From Sipunculus nudus (taxonomy: Eukaryota > Annelida > Sipuncula > Golfingiida > Sipunculidae): 64,000 bases of DNA. The notes beneath the pieces are model-generated. The model saw nothing but the letters and a program-made list of their open reading frames with translations. It had not been told where the DNA came from and ran no database searches. Positions 24,852-45,900 of the stretch are shown here, piece by piece. Numbering within the stretch: the first letter of the stretch is position 1; the number at the start of each line of letters is the position of its first letter. The translations under genes and the position numbers were made by a program. The stretch is taken from the NCBI GenBank assembly GCA_026874595.1, contig CM049317.1, positions 72,251,618 to 72,315,617 on the forward strand. Reading direction: 5' to 3'.

Positions 24852-26034
24852 CTAGAATACGGGTAGTCGACAAGCGACTATGTGTATCCGCCAAAATCAG
24901 AGTAGGACGGGTGAAGTGAGGCATGGATTGAGTGGCAAGGGGAAATAGTTACATGTGTTACATATTAGAATGGATGTCTGCCACGTAAACATGATTGTAG
25001 GTGGCGCCACCTGTTATTTGAACGAGAAACTATCCTTATGTATACACATGCAAAATTTCAGGTGGACAAGTCAAACCACTGCAGAGATATGTGATTTTAT
25101 CCCACAGCAGACAAACATATGGACGCTGTGCCAAAAAAAAAAAAAAAGACTGCAGGTGACGCCACCATTTTTGTGTATGTTATAAAGCTATCCAAGGGCT
25201 ACATTTGTGTAAACATTGTTTTCCTGATTGGTCAAACGGTTCCCGAGATATAAGCTTGGATGTCTGCAGCGTGAACGTAAATGTAGGTGGCGCCACCTGT
25301 CATAAAATCAAGAGAGCTATCTAGGATGTATACGCATGCCGAATTTCAGGTAATTTGGTCAAACCACTGCAGAGATAAGAGTGATTTTAACCCAAGGCAG
25401 ACAAACAGAAGGACGCTGTGCAAAAATGGCTGCAGGTGGCGCCACCATTTTTGTGTATGTTATAAAGCTATCCAAGGGCTACATTTGTGTAAAAAATTTT
25501 CCTGATTGGCCGAACGAGTCCGGAGGTTTAAGCATGGATATCTACAGCGTGAACGTGAATGTAGGTGGCACCACCTGTCATAAAATTAAGAAAGCTATCT
25601 AGGATGTATACGCATGCCGAATTTCAGGTGAATTAGTCAAACAACTGCTGAGATATGAGTGATTTTAACCCAAGGCCGATGAACAGATGGACACTGCAAA
25701 CATGGTTGCAGGTGGCGCCACCATTTTTGTGTATGTTATAAAGCTATCCAAGGGCTACATTTGTACAACTTTTATTCCTGATCGGTCAAACGGTTCCCGA
25801 GATAAAGTTTATGTGTGGAAACAGACGCACAAATGGACGCTGGGTAGAGAGGAAAGGTCAGAGGTCAAGGCCAAATTGGTTAGGCACCAGTTCACATGTG
25901 ACCCGATAATTGGTGTAAGTTTCGGAAAAATCCGTCCGGTAGTCTCACAGGAGTACTCCGGAAACGAACGCGGCTGTGGCGGAACCCGGTCAAAAACATA
26001 GTTTCCGCAAAACTTCGTATTGGCGGATACAATA
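24852..26034 (-). mobile_element. HINE-like element, copy D (longest, 1.2 kb)
   Basis: The left end is CTAGAATACGGGTAGTCG with the hairpin, then GTATCCGCCAAAATCAGAGT; the right end is CGTATTGGCGGATACAATAA. The interior is a roughly 280-bp dimeric tandem: GTAGGTGGCGCCACCTG-type sites at about 24999, 25283 and 25562 alternate with GCAGGTGGCGCCACCATTT-type sites at about 25153, 25434 and 25709. No open frame encodes a helicase or Rep domain, so it is non-autonomous. Confidence 0.7.
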
Positions 26035-28115: not shown

Positions 28116-28242
28116 CAAAATACACAAAGTAAACCCAAACTTACCGTGGCTGAATAGTTTAAAGAACAATTACTCTTATAATTACATCAGTACTCTACAG
28201 CTTATCAATTGGGAAAAATAAAGGCAACAGAATAAGTATAAT

Positions 28243-28506
28243 GAAATCTGGCAAACCATCTCAAACAATTTTGTGTCACAGGTGTTGAAATCTGGCAAAC
28301 CTTCTCAAACAATTTTGTGTCACAGGTGTTGAAATCTGGCAAACCTTCTCAAACAATTTTGTGTCACAGGTGTTGAAATCTGGCAAACCTTCTCAAACAA
28401 TTTTGTGTCACAGGTGTTGAAATCTGGCAAACCTTCTCAAACAATTTTGTGTCACAGGTGTTGAAATCTGGCAAACCTTCTCAAACAATTTTGTGTCACA
28501 GGTGTT
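28243..28506. repeat. 44-bp minisatellite, six units
   Basis: The unit GAAATCTGGCAAACCTTCTC + AAACAATTTTGTGTCACAGG + TGTT is repeated six times head to tail. Five units are essentially identical; the first has CCATCTC. There are no spacers, so this is not a CRISPR array. Confidence 0.97.
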
Positions 28507-30789
28507 CAAACAATATTTGTTATACAATGACCTTTCTCTACTACTGTTCTATCCAGAGACACTTTTTTTTTGCACAATTTGTACATGTCATAAATACAGC
28601 CCAGATCCAAACTTAAGTTCAAACTGCTACACCTGCATGAAGATTTAACACCTGGAATGGTAAACATTTATAGCCATGCATGTGTTCAATCACAGAGGCA
28701 CCATTTTTATACTGGTGCCGAGAAACCAGTTATATTGATTATATTTACTGGTTTAATAAATTAGCACACAATTACTCAAAATGCTGACTTTTAGCTCAAG
28801 TCATGTGTAAAAATTACTCAAGATACTGGATTTTTAAGTTCTTAATTTTACATAAGTCATCACTGTTGATTGAAAAACAAATCAACCTATAATTTACAAA
28901 TCTCTGAAATTCAGTTAATTTTGATCATAAATCATTCTGCAACAAGTCCAGGTTTGATGTACAGACTTTTGAGGGACAACCTGCTTCATGTTTCCATAGG
29001 TCTTTTAAATCTTTTTTGCTGACAACGATCTAATCTTGCATCAGTAGTTATCTAAATCCTTGTCACTGACAAGACTCTATTGTATATATTTGTCATTCGT
29101 ATAATTTTCTATAGGATATATACAAAAGAATTCCCCTGTAAGAATAAAGCAAAACCTTAAATTAGGACCACCATCAGAACCTCAATAAAGTGGGTCACAT
29201 TTTCAACTTTATATTACAGAATGAAACAAGCAAATTCATAGAATTTATGTCCCCCACTTCCACCTGGTTATTTTAACTTCCTGTGATCTTCATGCTTGCC
29301 TTCTGAATGTTTTAGTTTTTAGTTTCCCCTGAAGATGTCTCCACAGGTCAATTTTTTTTGTTTGGAAGTCGGAATAAAAGGGAAAGTTTTTGTTTTGGAG
29401 CTGGTGATAATAAATTTTCAGACAGACTCTCCCAAAACTAATCCCAACAAGGGTATGCTTGAGAGCAATCACTGATCCAAATTTGAATGTAATCAGATAA
29501 TATTTAGGAAAATTATCACACAGAAATGAGAACCTATTAAACAGACAGACAGAGGAACAGGCAGACAGACAAACCCAAATCAATGTCCCCTGTTCTGCGG
29601 AAGCGGGGCACAAAAAAAGAATCACGTCATGAGAAAGTGGTTCTTATTTGAGGTGGTCGCTACACTCAGGTGGCTGTCAGGGGAGGTTTTACTGGATTTC
29701 ACTGTGTCTTACAAAATGGACACCAGAGTGTGTTGATGAACAATTGAGGTATAACTGTGAATCATGAATAATCCCAAACAAAATACAAGTAAAATGTTTC
29801 AACAAAGGAAAACCAAAAGAAAAGTAAAAAAGTGAACATTTTATGTTCTGATTATTTAAATAATCATATTAAAACGTGGCTAAATGCAAAACAAGTGATG
29901 GCCATGTGGGGTTCTCTTTTAATACATAATTAATTTGTATTTCAAAGTCAAATATGTTAATCACTGTTTGTCTGATCTGAGCAGGTTAGGGCTCATCCAC
30001 AATGAGTGACATTTTTCAAAGCATACAGAAGGGGGGGGGGGGGGAGGGGTGAAAAGAAACTGTATGCTTGTCAGAAAAACTACATATTCCTGGCCCCATC
30101 TGTGATCTTCTGAAGCATAATTTATCGACTTCTACTTTTGAAGTTTATTATCATGTGTGCTTACATACATCTAGGTGTAGACTGCTCACTGGTTGTGACT
30201 TGCCAACATTTGAAGGATTTGGGTGTTTCTTTCCCATTTTATTCAGCAATGTTTGGCATATTCTAATTAGCAGGTCACAAGGTCAACTTTTTCTTTTAAT
30301 ACTCTGGGGAGGAGGGGGTGGGGTTGAAAATTTATGCACTCTTTGTGCTATTTGGAAAATGTTCATAATTGTGAATGACCCCTTAGTACAACAATGGCGA
30401 TTAGTCCATTTTTGATGTACAGTATGTAGCTTAGCAGATTTTCTCTGACCTCCAGAAACTTACCTTTACACTAGTAAGGGAACTAAGGGTTATTGTATCA
30501 GCATTATGTTCAAGTGATTCAAACAACAAACCAAGACATTATAAACAGAGGCAGAATGGTCTTCAAAACTGCTGTGGTAAATCATTAACAAATAAAATAA
30601 ATGCAAGAACATTGGTGTATGACTTTGCATGAGATATATTCCCAAAAGAGGAAAACACTGCATCTCAGGACAGCGATGAGTCGATGGCAAGATGTGTCCA
30701 AGTAATGGTTTCAGTTTGGATGCAGCTGTGTCACAACATGATGATATGAGCCTTCTCAGTGACGGAAGAAAATGTCCACAGAATCACGA
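28507..30789. other. Intergenic/HAT1 3' flank including probable 3'UTR
   Basis: Sequence downstream of the HAT1 stop on the minus strand. AATAAA on the minus strand occurs near 30236 and 30143 (TTTATT on the plus strand) and could end the transcript. 29236-29615 is an interspersed repeat also present at 40872-41280 (shared GACAGACAAACCCAAATCAA and a GTCCCC..GAAGCGGGG end). A poly(G) run lies at about 30031-30049. Confidence 0.5.
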
Positions 30790-33900: not shown

Positions 33901-36900
33901 AAGGGAGTAAATATATTTCTTGATTTTTTACAAAGTGCATTATGTTTGGGCCCATAACTTAAAACAAATACGCAATACTGACATCATTCTGGCATGTGCA
34001 TAGAGAATGAAAAATATGTATATTATTTATGATTAAAGTCAGATCAGTGGTTTTGATATTAGGCAGTCTTGAAGTGTAACAATGGGTTTTTAATGGAAAA
34101 ATGAAGTTTTTCATTAATATCTCAAAGGTATTAAGTCCTAGTGACCAAATTCTTGGCATGGTAGGGGATTTTGGAGACATCTAACTGTATGCCGAATTTA
34201 AGGAACTAATAGCTGAAGCTGGGGAGCTGAGCTCTTGCAAACTGCATAACACTAGCTTGATGTAAACAATACGTTACATGGTGCTTGAAAACTTATTAAA
34301 ATCTACAGTTTTTGATCAACTGGTTTCAAATTTTTGGTGTTAACAGTTGAAATGCTAACAAAAACATGCTGTGAAAATTAAATCCACAGTACTTACAGGA
34401 AAAAAACGTGCCATGGTCAAAGTTGGGCAAAATTTAAGGTACCAATTTTTTATTTTTATTAATATTTTAGAAAATTTAAAAGATTTTCATCTAATTTTGG
34501 GTATACAATTTAATTTTGATTAATTAAAGTTATATTACTGGAAAAAAGGTCGATAGCTTTAACATTTTTTGTGTTAAGTGATCAAATATCTTTCCTGATT
34601 TTTTACAAAATTCATTATGTTTGGGCCTATAACTTTTTTAAATTAAATAATACAGACATAATTTCTGGCATGTACATAGGAACTATATAGAGGAATATTC
34701 ATGGTAAATATGAGGAAAAACAGATGAGTGGTTTTGATATTAGGCAGTCCTGAAGTGTGAAAATAGGTTTTTATTAAAAAATTGAGGTTTTTCCTTAATT
34801 TCTCAAAGGAACGAAGTTGCAAAGACCCAGTTTTCGGCTTGGTAGGAGATCTTGGGGACATCTAACATTATGCCGAATTTTGGATTCCTAGGTCTTGCGG
34901 TTTCAAAACGTGCCACATCTACGGACGGACGGACAGACGGACGGACAGACGACAGACAATGGACCACGACTATAGCTCAGATGACTTATAGTCAGCTGAG
35001 CTAAAAAATAGAAAAATATTGTTAAAATAACAAAAAATACAGGTGGTAACACCACTGAGCTAAAAATCATTACTGTTCACATTACTTTACTCACTGACAA
35101 ACCAACCAGAAAAGCAAGGGGATTACATGATAGTATTAATACCTTTGAGTACCAGCAGAGGTTTAAATGTGATAATATTCAATATTGAACATGCAAAGCC
35201 GTCTAATGGCTATGGGCTTCACTAATTATACAATTAATAGATTACTGACCTGGAAAGGCATGTTGAGTCTTCGTTTGACGTCCAGTCTGTATGCTTTATA
35301 CTGCTCTTTATCGCTGGTGTCTGTAGCCTTCAGTCGCAAAATCTCATACACTCGACGTGCCTGTTTCTGGGAAACACACCATCAACAATTTATGTGTTAA
35401 TGTTGGTAGAAAAATTCTAGTCAGTTTCTGGCGAGACTTGCATATCTGACATGTTATGAATATTATGAGAGATACAGTTTCTAAAAATATAGATGTAAAT
35501 GGAACCAAACATATTCCAGTGCATACATCCTGGGTTTAAACCAAATACAACTGGTATAAATTTCTCAAGGAAAAAAAGAATCAACATTGTTCCAACATGT
35601 ATGAAACATATATATGTTACAGCAAATACCTTTAATTATGTAATTTATTATAAAATAACCTGTTAGGAGCTTTCAGAAATTAAGTGAGAGGAGTGGCTCT
35701 ATATTTATTTATATAATGCACTTTTTTAAAACAATTCTACACTGAAGAGAAACAGGAAGAGCTTAAAAGTACGAAATATATCAGTTATGAAGAAATGGAA
35801 CTCTCCTGTCCTAAAGTTCTGAAAACATGTGAGAGCATTCCAAAACAAGAATGCTCAATGCAGACCATAAGTGGTGGGGGATTATAACACCTTATCTGGC
35901 ACAGGGCTAATAATCAGACCAATGAGAGCGGATGTCCTGGTGTAATCAGACCAACAGGTGTTGCACTTTAAAAATTTGGAGCTGGATGCACAATGTGATA
36001 ACACACTCTCACTGGTCTGATTACAATCCTTTGCCTTGTGCGCACCCTGGTGTTTGAGCCCAGAAAATATTGCTATACAAAGCAGTGGTTTTGAGAGAAA
36101 AAATGATATTTTGGGACAACTGCAGTGTATAACCCTTGTATTAGGTAGATGTGAAGTAATAAACTACATGATGTATTCATTTCAGGGTTGACATTTTTTA
36201 AGAAAGTTCAATTAAGCAGTTCGCTTATTCAAATACTGTCACAGCATCTATGATTTATCATCTTGGCATCGTTGACCATGTCCTCACTAGCATCTGTACT
36301 TACTTTGTCAATTTTGAGCTTCATCTTGGCCTCGTTGACCGTGTCCTCACTAGTATCTGTACTTATTCTGTTAATTTTGAGCTTCATCTTGGCCTCACTG
36401 ACCATGTCCTCACTAGTATCTGTACTTACTTTGTCAATTTTGAGCTTCATCTTGGCCTCGTTGACCATGTCCTCACTAGTATCTGTACTTATTCTGTTAA
36501 TTTTGAGCTTCATCTTGGCCTGACTGACCATGTCCTCACTAGTATCTGTACTTACTCTGTTAATTTTGAGCTTCATCTTGGCCTAGTTGACCATGTCCTC
36601 ACTAGTATCTGTACTTGATTTGTTAATTTTGAGCTTCATCTTGGCCTCATTGACCATGTCCTCACTAGTATCCGTACATACTCTGTTAATTTTGAGCTTC
36701 ATCTTGGCCTCATTGACCATGTCCTCACTACTATCTGTACTTACTCTGTTAATTTTGAGCTTCATCTTGGCCTCATTGACCATGTCCTCACTATTATCTG
36801 TACTTACTCTGTTAATTTTGAGCTTCATCTTGGCCTCATTGACCATGTCCTCACTAGTATCTGTACTTACTCTGTTAATTTTGAGCTTCATCTTGGCCTT

Positions 36901-39900
36901 GCTGACCATGTCCTCACTACTATCTGTACTTACTCTGTTAATTTTGAGCTTCATCTTGGCCTCATTGACCATGTCCTCACTAGTATCTGTACTTACTCTG
37001 TTAATTTTGAGCTTCATCTTGGCCTTGCTGACCATGTCCTCACTACTATCTGTACTTACTCTGTTAATTTTGAGCTTCATCTTGGCCTCATTGACCATGT
37101 CCTCACTATTATCTGTACTTACTCTGTTAATTTTGAGCTTCATCTTGGCCTCATTGACCATGTCCTCACTAGTATCTGTACATACTCTGTTAATTTTGAG
37201 CTTCATCTTGGCCTTGCTGACCATGTCCTCACTAGTACCTGTACTTATTCTGTTAATTTTGAGCTTCATCTTGGCCTCATTGACCATGTCCTCACTAGTA
37301 TCTGTACTTACTCTGTTAATTTTGAGCTTCATCTTGGCCTTGCTGACCATGTCCTCACTACTATCTGTACTTACTCTGTTAATTTTGAGCTTCATCTTGG
37401 CCTCATTGACCATGTCCTCACTAGTATCTGTACTTACTCTGTTAATTTTGAGCTTCATCTTGGCCTCATTGACTATGTCCTCACTAGTATCTGTACTTAC
37501 TCTGTTAATTTTGAGCTTCATCTTGGCCTTGCTGACCATGTCCTCACTACTATCTGTACTTACTCTGTTAATTTTGAGCTTCATCTTGGCCTCATTGACC
37601 ATGTCCTCGCTATTATCTGTACTTACTCTGTTAATTTTGAGCTTCATCTTGGCCTCATTGACCATGTCCTCACTAGTATCTGTACTTACTCTGTTAATTT
37701 TGAGCTTCATCTTGGCCTTGCTGACCATGTCCTCACTACTATCTGTACTTACTCTGTTAATTTTGAGCTTCATCTTGGCCTCATTGACCATGTCCTCACT
37801 AGTATCTGTACTTACTCTGTTAATTTTGAGCTTCATCTTGGCCTCATTGACCATGTCCTCACTAGTATCTGTACTTATTCTGTTAATTTTGAGCTTCATC
37901 TTGGCCTCGTTGACCATGTCCTCACTAGTATCTGTACTTATTCTGTTAATTTTGAGCTTCATCATGGCCTGACTGACCATGTCCTCACTAGTATCTGTAC
38001 TTACTCTGTTAATTTTGAGTTTCATCTTGGCCTAGTTGACCATGTCCTCACTAGTATCTGTACTTAATTTGTTAATTTTGAGATTCATCTTGGCCTCATT
38101 GACCATGTCCTCACTAGTATCTGTACATACTCTGTTAATTTTGAGCTTCATCTTGGCCTCATTGACCATGTCCTCACTAGTACCTGTACTTATTCTGTTA
38201 ATTTTGAGCTTCATCTTGGCCTCATTGACCATGTCCTCACTAGTATCTGTACTTATTCTGTTAATTTTGAGCTTCATCTTGGACTCGTTGACCATGTCCT
38301 CACTAGTATCTGTACTTATTCTGTTAATTTTGAGCTTCATCTTGGCCTCATTGACCATGTCCTCACTAGTATCTGTACATACTCTGTTAATTTTGAGCTT
38401 CATCTTGGCCTTGCTGACCATGTCCTCACTAGTACCTGTACTTATTCTGTTAATTTTGAGCTTCATCTTGGCCTCATTGACCATGTCCTCACTAGTATCT
38501 GTACTTACTCTGTTAATTTTAAGCTTCATCTTGGCCTTGCTGACCATGTCCTCACTAGTACCTGTACTTATTCTGTTATTTTTGAGCTTCATCTTGGCCT
38601 CATTGACCATGTCCTCACTAGTATCTGTACTTACTCTGTTAATTTTGAGCTTCATCTTGGCCTCATTGACCATGTCCTCACTAGTATCTGTACATACTCT
38701 GTTAATTTTGAGCTTCATCTTGGCCTTGCTGACCATGTCCTCACTAGTACCTGTACTTATTCTGTTAATTTTGAGCTTCATCTTGGCCTCATTGACCATG
38801 TCCTCACTAGTATCTGTACTTACTCTGTTAATTTTGAGCTTCATCTTGGCCTCGTTGACCATGTCCTCACTAGTATCTGTACTTACTCTGTTAATTTTGA
38901 GCTTCATCTTGGCCTTGCTGACCATGTCCTCACTAGTACCCGTTCTAATTCTGTTAATTTTGAGCTTCATCTTGGCCTCATTGACCATGTCCTCACTAGT
39001 ATCTGTACTTACTCTGTTAATTTTGAGCTTCATCTTGGCCTTGCTGACCATGTCCTCACTAGTACCCGTTCTAATTCTGTTAATTTTGAGCTTCATCTTG
39101 GCCTCATTGACCATGTCCTCACTAGTATCTGTACTTACTTTGTCAATTTTGAGCTTCATCTTGGCCTCGTTGACCATGTCCTCACTAGTATCTGTACTTA
39201 CTCTGTTAATTTTGAGCTTCATCTTGGCCTTGCTGACCATGTCCTCACTAGTACCCATTCTAATTCTGTTAATTTTGAGCTTCATCTTGGCCTCATTGAC
39301 CATGTCCTCACTAGTATCTGTACTTACTCTGTTAATTTTGAGCTTCATCTTGGCCTTGCTGACCATGTCCTCACTAGTACCCGTTCTAATTCTGTTAATT
39401 TTGAGCTTCATCATGGCCGCATTGACCATGTCCTCACTAGTATCTGTACTTACTCTGTTAATTTTGAGCTTCATCTTGGCCTCATTGACCATGTCCTCAC
39501 TAGTATCTGTACTTACACTGTTAATTTTGAGCTTCATCTTGGCCTTGCTGACCATGTCCTCACTAGTACCCGTTCTAATTCTGTTAATTTTGAGCTTCAT
39601 CATGGCCTCATTGACCATGTCCTCACTAGTATCTGTACTTACTCTGTTAATTTTGAGCTTCATCTTGGCCTTGCTGACCATGTCCTCACTAGTACCCGTT
39701 CTAATTCTGTTAATTTTGAGCTTCATCTTGGCCTCACTGACCATGTCCTCACTAGTATCTGTACTTACTTTGTCAATTTTGAGCTTCATCTTGGCCTCGT
39801 TGACCATGTCCTCACTAGCATCTGTACTTACTTTGTCAATTTTGAGCTTCATCTTGGCCTCATTGACCATGTCCTCACTAGTATCTGTACTTACTCTGTT

Positions 39901-42900
39901 AATTTTGAGCTTCATCTTGGCCTTGCTGACCATGTCCTCACTAGTACCCGTTCTAATTCTGTTAATTTTGAGCTTCATCTTGGCCTCATTGACCATGTCC
40001 TCACTAGTATCTGTACTTACTCTGTTAATTTTGAGCTTCATCTTGGCCTCGTTGACCATGTCCTCGCTGAACCCTTCCATCAGCTTGTCCTTTTGAAAGC
40101 TGATCAGTTTCTGACAGTTGCAGGCATCAACATAATCCCTTACTCTTTGGAAATTCTCTGAAGGATCTTCAACTGCAAAATAAACATTTGCTACAATGAC
40201 CAAGGTTATAAAGGGACTGCATATCCACCATGATATGTATTTTATATAAATGTTATTAGTTATTACTGAATGTAATGTTTCTTTTCAATATGCAATTTGT
40301 TCACAACAGGGCTTAAGCCCACTGTGTGTTATAACTGTAGACAACTGCTAGTCATTTATTTCTCAAATAAAAATACAGAAAACCCTTGCAAGCTAAAAGC
40401 TAACTTCAATATATTAAAATCTGAAGTAATATCAGCAATAAAGAAATGAAAAAGCCACATTAACCAGTGAAACTGATGTCTTTCTGACACCACTTGGTAC
40501 AAATATAAAACACAGGAAAGCAGTCAGGTGAGTTTACTTGAGAGGTGTTACCAACCTGTGATATCTAGGATGTCAGAGCGGTGAGTGATGTCTTTGTAGA
40601 AGGTGTTAATGAGAGTGGCACAGTGTCCCATGCGCTGGAAAGGTGGCAGCACTAGTACTTGGCTGAAATAAGAAAAATTTGTTACAGGTTTATTCCATAG
40701 CCATGGATTAAAACACAAATGCTATATCAAAAAATGCTATATTTACAATAAATGCTCACATCAGTTCTTTAATAATTTTTTATAATGAAGGTACATTACT
40801 TGAGTCATATCATATGTAAACACTTCAATACCCACCACCTTAGCAAAGTATAAACAAGCAAATTTGTGGAATTTATGTCCCCCAATTTTGCCTCTTGTTG
40901 TCATTCATGCTTACTTTATCAATGTTTTAGTTTTTATTCTTGCCTGAAGATGTCTCATCATTTCATAGTGGCTGTTTTTAGTTTTCATGGTCCCCTGGAG
41001 ATGTGTCCACATTGCGTAACTTTGGTTGTGGAACACAAACAAAATTTCATTTGTTTGTTTTGGAGCTGGTTTTTCAGACAGGCATAATTTTCAGACAGAC
41101 ACTCCAAAACCAATCCCAACCAAGGTACACATGAAAGCAATCAATGACCCAAATTTAAATGAAATCAGATAATATTTAGGAAAGTTATCGCCTGGAAACA
41201 AAATGTGACAGACGAACAAGCAGGTGGACAGACAGACAAACCCAAATCAATGTCCCCTATTCAGAGGAAGCGGGGACAATAAAAAGAAACACCACTGTTA
41301 ATATACTGAATTTGTGTTTGAGTCAGCTCCATTCAAAAGAAGCCAGAACAGTAAGATCTGAAAGACATATTGAAACTTCTTGCTACAGATGTGTCAGGTT
41401 TGCTTCCTGAACTACTTTTTCAGCAATACTTTAACAATCCTCAGAGGCATTGTAACTGTCAATTTCTTTCACCGGGGAGCCACATGACATAATTTCAGTA
41501 CCTTCATTCATGTGGAACCATGCTTTTATCTTTGTAGAACAAAAATATTAACAAACACACCAAAGTGAAACTCTTATCACTACAGTTGCTTGTTCAACAA
41601 AAGGTTCGACCATTTCTTAAATAACAATAATTTTCCTTCATCAAACTTCTTCCATATATTACTGTTAATGGTGGAGCAGGTAATACTGGTCTATTAGACT
41701 CTGTGTCATGCTGACTTACCTGATTCTGGGCCGTGTTTTCGCTGGGTATCCGTAATAATTGTACACAGTCATATAACCAACTACAGCATACATAGGACTA
41801 CCACTGTTCATGTACTTCTCAAACCTGAAATAACAATATCACCTTATTAGGTTGCTAAATTTTCTCATTGGAGATCACTATATACACAATGAAACTGATA
41901 GTTTTTAGTATTTTCATTTATGTATTTTTTCCATTAAGTTCTAGATGCACTCTTTTGACTTTTACCAAACATCTACAGCCACTTATACCCACTGCAAGAT
42001 ACAACAATTTTGTGTAATGTGTCACAGTTTTTTCAATATGTGTAGTCTCCTGTGATTTCATAAGCTTCAATCTGTGATCATGTACTATTTTTTATGACAC
42101 TGTGAAAAATTATATGAATTCACAAAAGAGTATGGTCTGCTAAATGAATAACAACCACAAGTCTGTAAATCACCTTGACAATAACAAACCTGGCACTACT
42201 TACACCAGGTAGTATGTCCACTTTTCATCGTCCACGTCGATGTAAGACGCAGCATCCACATAAAACAGCAGAAAGGTTTGCAATCGCTCGTGGTACTCTC
42301 GGAATCCGGGGGCTTCAATGTCGGTTTTGTATATCTCAAACTGGCGCTCTGTTCCAGCTTAAAATAGGAATTAAAAGTTCATATTTTCATAAAAGAGATC
42401 CCAAATGATTTTGTTGTGTCTGTCAACAGACACAAATGAATGAAGTCACTACTGAAAATCTGAGAAAAACTTTGAAAAAAAAAATCAAGATTTGGTATAA
42501 ATAAATATCATTTTTATTACCTAGGGAGGGGTACCTTTGTGAATATATCCACTCCTGGAGAGTACTGAACACCGCAGTCGGAGCCATCCAGAGTTATTAT
42601 AACTATCTGTACATTTCATTAAGTTTAATATAAAGTCAGAGAAGCTTAATTGATTTTTTGCTCAATAATTCAAATCTTAATTCACTGGACTGACAAAACT
42701 CCTGATAGTCTTGCAGAAAATAAATAATTTAAACAAGGCCTACAGGCCTAATGCGAACCTGTGCATTGGGAAATACATTAGGTATAATGCTTCAATACTG
42801 GCCCATTACTTTTCATGTGTATGAACAATGCAAGTACTAAACATTTTGAATAAGAAACAATTACACAAAAATCACTGCTGAAATTCTGGCATGGGTGCAC

Positions 42901-45900
42901 ACAACACAAAAATGATTGTAGTTGGCACCACCAGTCTTGTATACAACAAAGCTATCAGAGATATATACATATGCCCAATTTCAGACTGATATATCAAACC
43001 CCTCCTGAGAAATAAGCAGGGACACACGTGCAAAAATTATTGTTGGTGGCACCACCAGTCTTGTATATGACAAAGCTATTCGATATGGTATAACTATGCC
43101 CAATTTCAGGTTGATTATATCAAATTCCTCTGTAGCAATAAGGAGGCACATAAACTGTGCAAAAGTCATTGTAGGTGGCGACACCTGTCTTGTGAACGAG
43201 AAAGCCATCAAAGACACATAGACAGGCCAAAATATCAGGCCACTACATCAAACTTACCTTGAGTCTGATGCATGGGGCTGACCAGGCTTAGGTGAGAAAG
43301 GCAGTTGCCCCAAGTGAACTGTGACAAATTGCCAGCTCAGGCTACTGCACTGAGTGAACTCATAACCTGCACCTGGCTAGACTGGGTGAACTTTTGACCT
43401 GTACCTGGCTGCACTGAGTGAACTCTTGACCTATTGCATAATCTGACACAGTGGGCAGTCTGCCAATGCTATAAATTGAACACAGCTACTGCATTGAGTG
43501 AACTCCTGACCTATACCCGGCTGCACTGAGTGAACTCTTGACCAGTTACCTAATCTGATACAGTTGGCAGTCTGCCAAAGCTATAAATAGATCCAGACTG
43601 ACCTTTGGCCTGTTGCCAAATCTGAAATAGTAGCCACATCATTGCATAAGCTCACAGATTGGCTCCACATGCAGCCCTCAGGGGCATGACACCCATGAGG
43701 TGATCACATGATACTCATGAGATGATCACATGCTACCCATGAGGTGATCACATGCTGCCCATGAGGTGTTCCCATGACACCCATGCGGTGATCACATGCC
43801 ATGTGCTTGGCTGCACTGATTGAACTCTTGACCTATATCTGGCTGCACTGAATGAACTCTTGATCTGTTGCAAAATCTGAAACAGTTGGCAGTTTTTCAA
43901 CCTATTTAATGATACAGACACAATCTTTGCCTGTTGGTAAATCTGTTTACACATACTGAAAGACTAAAATGCTTTTTTTTTCAAGCTGACATATTCATAA
44001 ACTTTTTTACCAAAAATATCTATAATAATAAAAGATGCAGTCCTTTCATTGTTAAAGGTCCAATAATTCTGCCTAAAATCATTCAAGTAAACTTGAACAA
44101 AGGCCACCTAAACAATTTTGTAGAAGAACACTATTGCAGTCCTCAGCTTGAAATAAACATAATAATGGCCATAAGACCAACTTAAGCTTTTTACGACTCA
44201 ACCAAAAATCAACAAACTCAATCTATTCTTATATGATTGAATGAACCATGTCCTAGAATAATTCTTTTGAAAAATTGAACAATTCAACTTGACAGTTTCA
44301 TCTTAAACATTATAAGCTGAAAGAGGCTAAAGTTAAACGTTTTTGCCCATAAAAAACAGGTCAATGTAGGTGGCACCACAAAATCTGCAACTTCAAATAT
44401 GAGTCATGTGACCAACATTTGCACAATTCTTGGTAATGCTAGGTTCTGTCATTTCTGAGATTACTATGTCAGTATGCTTACTTGGCCAAATGACTAAGTT
44501 CAAATTTGTGTAACTCCGCTAATATTCATCAAATGCAAACCATTTGAACAAACATGAGAAAGCTTGCCTCTGGGATCATTTATGTAAAATATTGAACAAT
44601 TTGGCTGGACTGTTTACAAGAAGAAGACTTTTAGAGGTTTTTCAGCCTTTTCCCTATAAAATTCAAGTTAATGCAGATAACAAAAAAATATATATAATAT
44701 ATACATATATACATATAATATGTGACAAATTATTGCATAAAATCTGGTGATGGTAGCTCCTGCTATTCCTGAGAAATTATGGGTTAATATACAGATGACC
44801 AATGACCCCAGTACAAAAAAGGTGAATGCAAGTGGCGCCACCAATACCTGAATTTCATATATGACTCATGTGACCAACACTGGCATAAAATTTGGTGATG
44901 ATAGCTCAGGCTGTTTCTGAAATGGTCAATTTAGTATGCCTTTTTGGACAGATGACTTAGTTCAACTTCCTGTAACTCGGCCAAAATTCACCCAAATTTA
45001 ACCAAAATGAATGAACCATGTCCTAGAATAATTCTTTTGAAAAATTGAACAATTCAACTTGACAGTTTCATCTTAAACATTATAAGCTGAAAGAGGCTAA
45101 AGTTAAACGTTTTTGCCCATAAAAAACAGGTCAATGTAGGTGGCACCACAAAATCTGCAACTTCAAATATGAGTCATGTGACCAACATTTGCACAATTCT
45201 TGGTAATGCTAGGTTCTGTCATTTCTGAGATTACTATGTCAGTATGCTTACTTGGCCAAATGACTAAGTTCAAATTTGTGTAACTCCGCTAATATTCATC
45301 AAATGCAAACCATTTGAACAAACATGAGAAAGCTTGCCTCTGGGATCATTTGTGTAAAATATTGAACAATTTGGCTGGACTGTTTACAAGAAGAAGACTT
45401 TTAGAGGTTTTTCAGCCTTTTCCCTATAAAATTCAAGTTAATGCAGATAACAAAAAAATATATATAATATATACATATATACATATAATATGTGACAAAT
45501 TATTGCATAAAATCTGGTGATGGTAGCTCCTGCTATTCCTGAGAAATTATGGGTTAATATACAGATGACCAATGACCCCAGTACAAAAAAGGTGAATGCA
45601 AGTGGCGCCACCAATACCTGAATTTCATATATGACTCATGTGACCAACACTGGCATAAAATTTGGTGATGATAGCTCAGGCTGTTTCTGAAATGGTCATT
45701 TTAGTATGCCTTTTTGGACAGATGACTTAGTTCAACTTCCTGTAACTCGGCCAAAATTCACCCAAATTTAACCATTTGAATAAACTTGAGAGAGATGGAT
45801 AAATGCAGAGTTTCTCAGATGGCTAATTTTTTGCATTTAATTTCATGATGCTAGCTCCAGTCTTTGTAAAATATTAAACAAATTAGCCTCAGTTGTGTCA

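Follow-up and report, generated by a model that had tools for sequence, protein, structure and literature searches.

An intron of the HAT1 gene of Sipunculus nudus, a sipunculan worm, begins with a tandem array of 60 complete units derived from its own 5′ splice site. The array lies in a window of 64,000 nucleotides (nt) of contig CM049317.1 (assembly GCA_026874595.1), and positions below are those of the window. The sequence supports the view that the repeat unit is the end of a HAT1 exon plus the exon's own donor, and that the ancestral splice site is represented by the first GTAAGT. The array is real and striking. There is no positive evidence of function, and it is probably harmless. We favor a reading that seems to us probable, in which the array is a minisatellite that arose by tandem duplication, splicing proceeds mainly from donor 1, and the array is lost along with the intron, at little or no cost or benefit.

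Tandem Repeats Finder (TRF) places the array at 36258-40065 on the minus strand, with a period of 63, 60.4 copies, 91% matches and 0% indels. When it is cut every 63 nt, it falls into 60 complete units, with 28 nt left over and no indel anywhere. Each complete unit consists of 45 nt of exon end and 18 nt of intron start, and there are 32 distinct sequences among the 60. In minus-strand order, the exon end EDMVNEAKMKLKINR is followed by GTAAGTACAGATACTAGT and then by GAGGACATGGTC, which is the exon end repeated. The upstream border is the GAG of the HAT1 exon (40065) and the downstream border is the unit cut at 28 nt. The first-pass annotation of this DNA had described about 60 copies, and this number stands. 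Its period of 60 bp and its border at 40053 are to be replaced by 63 bp and 40065. The intron (35367-40020) has 4654 nt, of which the array makes up 3763 nt. The features of the exons and the array are these:

40021 to 40172, minus strand: HAT1 exon of 152 nt with the parent copy (EDPSENF...EDMVNEAKMKLKINR), from sequence, PDB phmmer and tblastn; its start is set by the AG at 40173-40174.
40003 to 40065, minus strand: parent unit (copy 1), the last 45 nt of the exon and the first 18 nt of the intron, from TRF and unit cutting.
40021 to 40065, minus strand: parent exon part of copy 1, read from the sequence.
40015 to 40020, minus strand: native 5′ splice site GTAAGT (unit 1), from sequence, with the exon end positioned by homology to human HAT1.
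36286 to 40002, minus strand: copies 2-60, each exactly 63 nt, with GT at the donor in 39 of 59, from unit cutting and donor count.
38806 to 38868, minus strand: copy 20, identical to the parent unit at 63 of 63 nt, from unit comparison.
38032 to 38034, minus strand: first in-frame stop (TAG) within the array, in copy 33, from unit cutting and frame reading.
36583 to 36585, minus strand: second in-frame TAG, in copy 56, from unit cutting and frame reading.
36258 to 36285, minus strand: last copy, partial (28 nt, exon-derived part only), from sequence, TRF and unit cutting.
35250 to 35366, minus strand: next HAT1 exon (KQARRVYEILRL...), with its acceptor AG at 35367-35368, from sequence, PDB phmmer and tblastn.

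The 89-residue peptide read from the two exons matches 2p0w and 9mjg, chains of the histone acetyltransferase type B catalytic subunit, in a PDB phmmer search (E 6.3e-17), and its residues 1-66 align to the HAT1 chains without a gap across the exon junction. A tblastn search with human HAT1 gives nine collinear minus-strand blocks from 53816 to 30799 outside the array and 14 matches inside it. The two most 5′ blocks score poorly, with E 0.71 and 0.046, and no block covers human residues 1-20, 63-90 or 149-153; "exon 10" is an unverified label taken from the first-pass annotation. We also searched the genome itself (1.43 Gb, 153 contigs) with a 171-nt query, the 152-nt exon with its donor. Because all 61 matches are at the HAT1 locus, the unit is the local exon end with its donor; a derivation from elsewhere is rejected, as this search, which skips very common words, gave no other locus. 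Thus, TRF, unit cutting, phmmer and the genome matches bear out the earlier claim that the array is not a random intronic satellite and that its unit is the HAT1 exon end with its own donor and first intron bases. The claim that the parent copy is intact at 40021-40065, with the first GTAAGT as the ancestral site, is likewise supported by the sequence and by the gap-free match across the junction.

The count of about 40 intact donors among 60 was also correct: GT is present at +1/+2 in 40 units, as GTAAGT in 35 and GTATGT in 5. The other 20 units have ATAAGT (11), ATTAGA (7), TTAAGT (1) or TCAAGT (1). Intact donors number 7, 6, 4, 7, 9 and 7 per ten units, with no trend with distance from the exon. 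Copies 1-32 contain 18 of them and copies 33-60 contain 22, so that 14 units of the former group lack GT. Donor 2 reads ATTAGA and is dead, and donors 3, 4 and 5 would add 126, 189 and 252 nt to the exon. The unit length of 63 nt puts all donors in phase 0, in agreement with the earlier description of near-identical, equally phased donors. In a duplex model with the 5′ end of U1, 30 of the 35 GTAAGT units reach -10.2 kcal/mol and the other five -7.0, while the five GTATGT units are at -6.4.

The nine letters around the native donor, AGAGTAAGT, are shared by 29 of the 60 units including the parent, and unit 20 is the same as the parent throughout. U1 pairing therefore cannot separate those donors. 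Should the cell reliably pick donor 1 out of dozens of nearly identical sites of equal phase, it would have to rely on exon length and position, or on the wider exon context. Nature has here set up an experiment, since the donors of units 1 and 20 (63/63 nt) are distinguished by nothing but their position and wider context.

The order of the unit types records how the array may have grown. Exact pairs of unit types recur in four sets: units 2-3, 16-17 and 18-19; units 21-22, 26-27 and 45-46; units 37-38, 40-41, 43-44, 48-49 and 50-51; and units 47-48 and 52-53. In addition, copies 31-36 correspond to copies 54-59 with 1-3 nt differences per unit, and these form a duplicated block. Recurring pairs and matching blocks are what one typically sees where unequal exchange or slippage has duplicated whole blocks. 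We suggest that a 63-nt segment across the HAT1 exon end and 5′ splice site was tandemly duplicated, and that unequal exchange or slippage may later have amplified two-unit and longer blocks.

As judged from the sequence, donor 1 is most likely used by virtue of its exon context, and the copies are passengers. This is because an exon that runs from the acceptor to donor 1 has a normal length, 152 nt. The splicing machinery would define this exon from the acceptor to the first donor, and the array would leave with the intron, nearly neutral in its effect. There are precedents in the lancelet "mirages", which are tandem duplications of exon-intron boundaries in the Adh3, troponin C, globin and PGBD5 genes (PMC3087553, PMC3902484). 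In the passages cited here, reverse transcription polymerase chain reaction of the globins and data on Adh3 suggest that splicing is undisturbed (PMC3087553), and the same is said of the troponin C mirage (PMC3902484).

Neither the codons nor the donors look conserved among the copies. Of the 30 distinct variants, 6 fall in the donor hexamer, where 2.9 would be expected (naive P 0.045 for an excess, if positions are independent and recurrences of a variant are ignored), and selection keeping the donors intact is rejected on this count. In the exon-derived 45 nt the distinct variants, again each counted once, are 3 synonymous, 13 replacement and 1 stop, where 3.31, 13.16 and 0.53 are expected without selection; copies 2-32 alone have 2 synonymous and 10 replacement variants. 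Strong codon constraint among the copies is thereby excluded, while moderate constraint is not. Folding of the first four units as RNA is no better than shuffles (z 0.04), and RNA structure hiding the copies is rejected for these units.

Several observations weigh against the passenger reading. The silent/replacement test has low power, with 16 non-stop variants: a ratio of replacement to silent rates (dN/dS) of 0.3 or less is disfavored (P 0.025), and a ratio of 0.5 is not (P 0.16). Five donors read AAA/GTAAGT where the native site reads AGA/GTAAGT, and we take the former to be nearer the U1 consensus at -2, though the duplex model ranks them weaker (-7.0 vs -10.2 kcal/mol). The 60 units have no indels, where about 4.5 are expected from 13 control arrays with 39 distinct indels and 260 distinct substitutions (pooled P 0.011). 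With the seven controls of period at least 30, the expectation is 3.1 (P 0.045). The six controls with at least 15 substitutions, weighed singly, give a mean P of 0.21 for zero indels; zero indels are also found in 6 of the 13 controls, and one control has 6 indels to 7 substitutions. We consider the lack of indels a weak sign of frame conservation, which does not fit a plain neutral array. Finally, in human duplicated genes, splicing-altering minisatellite repeats are reported at exon-intron boundaries, with 27 intron modifications after inspection, and for 66% of the intron modifications there is also a transcript that keeps the repeat, according to the passages used (PMC2812944).

The controls come from 264 kb of the same genome (the window and 20 stretches of 10 kb), in which TRF gave 25 rows with a period of 20-250 and at least 3 copies. 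Dropping rows scoring below 130 and overlapping rows of the same array left the HAT1 array and 13 controls, the longest of which (in stretch L032) was cut to 3800 bases. The HAT1 array has 31 distinct substitutions including the remnant and 30 in the 60 full units, and the latter number was used. A repeated GTRAGT occurs in 2 of the 25 rows, both from this array, and the L032 row has a single GTRAGT. A genome-wide habit of this kind finds no support in these rows, though so small a sample could easily miss further arrays. The L032 array itself (L032 1-6781; G000:C3 from 70,000,000) is a 32-bp tandem array of 212 copies.

In another reading, splicing from donors within the array is frequent enough to be measured, and HAT1 isoforms gain 21-residue repeats (42, 63 and 84 residues via donors 3, 4 and 5, for example). 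We consider this unlikely, though the human boundary repeats, so often retained in alternative transcripts, speak for it and somewhat against the passenger reading, which stays probable. The 63-nt phase-0 unit, the absence of indels and the run of open copies 1-32, with its 18 GT donors before the first in-frame stop in copy 33, also speak for such isoforms. However, the silent/replacement split looks neutral, in copies 2-32 as well, within the limit that moderate constraint would pass; GT is gone from 14 of the units in copies 1-32; and we estimate that a unit that is a multiple of three without a stop would arise by chance in about one case in four. In its boldest form, the array would serve as a ladder of splice sites: of the 18 in-frame donors that precede the stop, some would be used, one HAT1 allele would give proteins in 21-residue steps, and changes in array length between individuals would shift the isoform range. 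This we regard as rather unlikely. A translated exon extension as the main reading was set aside on the neutral split and the two stops (2 of 60 units, copies 33 and 56), which also separate the array from coding tandem repeats (exonic variable number tandem repeats) that are in frame without stops. That rejection is weakened by the low power of the test and by the lack of indels. The open frames of 138-697 residues on the reverse strand over the array simply follow from the repetition of a 63-nt unit that lacks stops.

Two further readings appear much less probable. That the copy number or the whole array is an assembly artefact is very improbable in our judgment. Tandem arrays are prone to wrong length, and one lancelet mirage was aberrantly assembled in the draft genome, as described in the cited part of PMC3087553. 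However, plain assembly duplication would yield exact copies, whereas this array has 32 distinct units arranged in structured blocks, its variants are linked, related blocks differ at 1-3 positions in each unit, and the contigs are chromosome-sized (C12 = 78.6 Mb). Hardly likely, too, is that the repeated donors are binding sites for the U1 small nuclear ribonucleoprotein that delay splicing, retain U1 or guard the transcript against early intronic polyadenylation. The 40 GT donors and their duplex energies would suit such a role, and the 891 nt that follow the array contain three A(A/T)TAAA motifs, while the array itself contains none. Against this, the donor hexamer is not conserved among the copies and the first four units have no RNA structure beyond chance. 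To our knowledge, a single transcript cannot plausibly drain the U1 pool. The functions first proposed for the array, namely tuning of splicing efficiency, sequestration of U1 and isoforms of different repeat length, are thus left without positive evidence, as the donors are not conserved and the codons are not under strong selection.

The same intron holds a second repeat, outside the array:

35878 to 36145, minus strand: dispersed repeat, from genome search matches.

With 40 of 2937 candidates scored, all 83 listed matches besides the HAT1 locus fall here. Among the matches listed, it is found on many contigs, several times as neighboring copies in opposite orientation. At G000:C8:6446862-6447839, a 45-nt part of it is repeated about every 32 nt and seems to have turned locally into a tandem array. 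The window has other arrays at 28242-28510 (44 bp x 6.1, 99% alike), 24962-25804 (278 bp x 3) and 42907-43214 (124 bp x 2.4), and none of these three overlaps the tblastn HAT1 blocks. Elsewhere in the assembly there are ten near-full-length COX1 matches with stop-free frames of 489-578 residues, on contigs C60, C61, C62, C66, C72, C74, C75, C89 (twice) and C123. These look bacterial (symbionts or contamination) and not mitochondrial. One further COX1 match is a 51-codon fragment with TGA on C5.

The first-pass annotation knew of no described gene with such an array, a statement that the lancelet genes (PMC3087553, PMC3902484) and the human duplicated genes (PMC2812944) contradict. The lancelet mirages (Adh3, BflGb6, BflGb9, PGBD5 and troponin C) resemble the HAT1 array in that the repeats span an exon-intron boundary and many units, not all, retain splice signals. 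In HAT1, 60 of 60 complete units span the boundary of a protein-coding gene and 40 of 60 retain GT. The PGBD5 mirages have 60- and 108-bp repeats at 5′ splice sites (PMC3902484). Mirage units range from 10-72 bp (Adh3) to 150-160 bp (globins), and their lengths differ between haplotypes (PMC3087553, PMC3902484). The difference is in size: HAT1 has 60 units, whereas the acceptor-side repeat of BflGb6 has 3 and 6 in its two haplotypes and PGBD5 has from 2 to 7 according to which assembly is used. The HAT1 array is thus far larger than the mirages whose copy numbers were compared (BflGb6 and PGBD5).

The boundary repeats of human segmental duplications are also minisatellites at exon-intron boundaries that are spliced out or kept. 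However, they have a mean of four 30-bp units and belong to recently duplicated genes (PMC2812944), whereas the HAT1 array has 60 units of 63 bp and all matches of its exon end in the genome search are at one locus. In the AGGT model, as outlined in the part of PMC4974935 consulted, a duplicated intron-exon boundary segment likewise takes splice signals along. In that case a new intron arose; in HAT1 the unit carries a donor but no acceptor was copied with it, and the original intron is still in place. Spliceosomal twin introns (stwintrons) share with HAT1 an unusual arrangement of donors in one intron, but they are nested, whereas the HAT1 array has no nested intron and is a plain row of competing donors. 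The HAT1 array is therefore a large example of an already described type of boundary repeat. What sets it apart is the presence of 60 units in one donor-side array, and this means that boundary-spanning minisatellites of the mirage type can reach such a size in an animal other than the lancelet.

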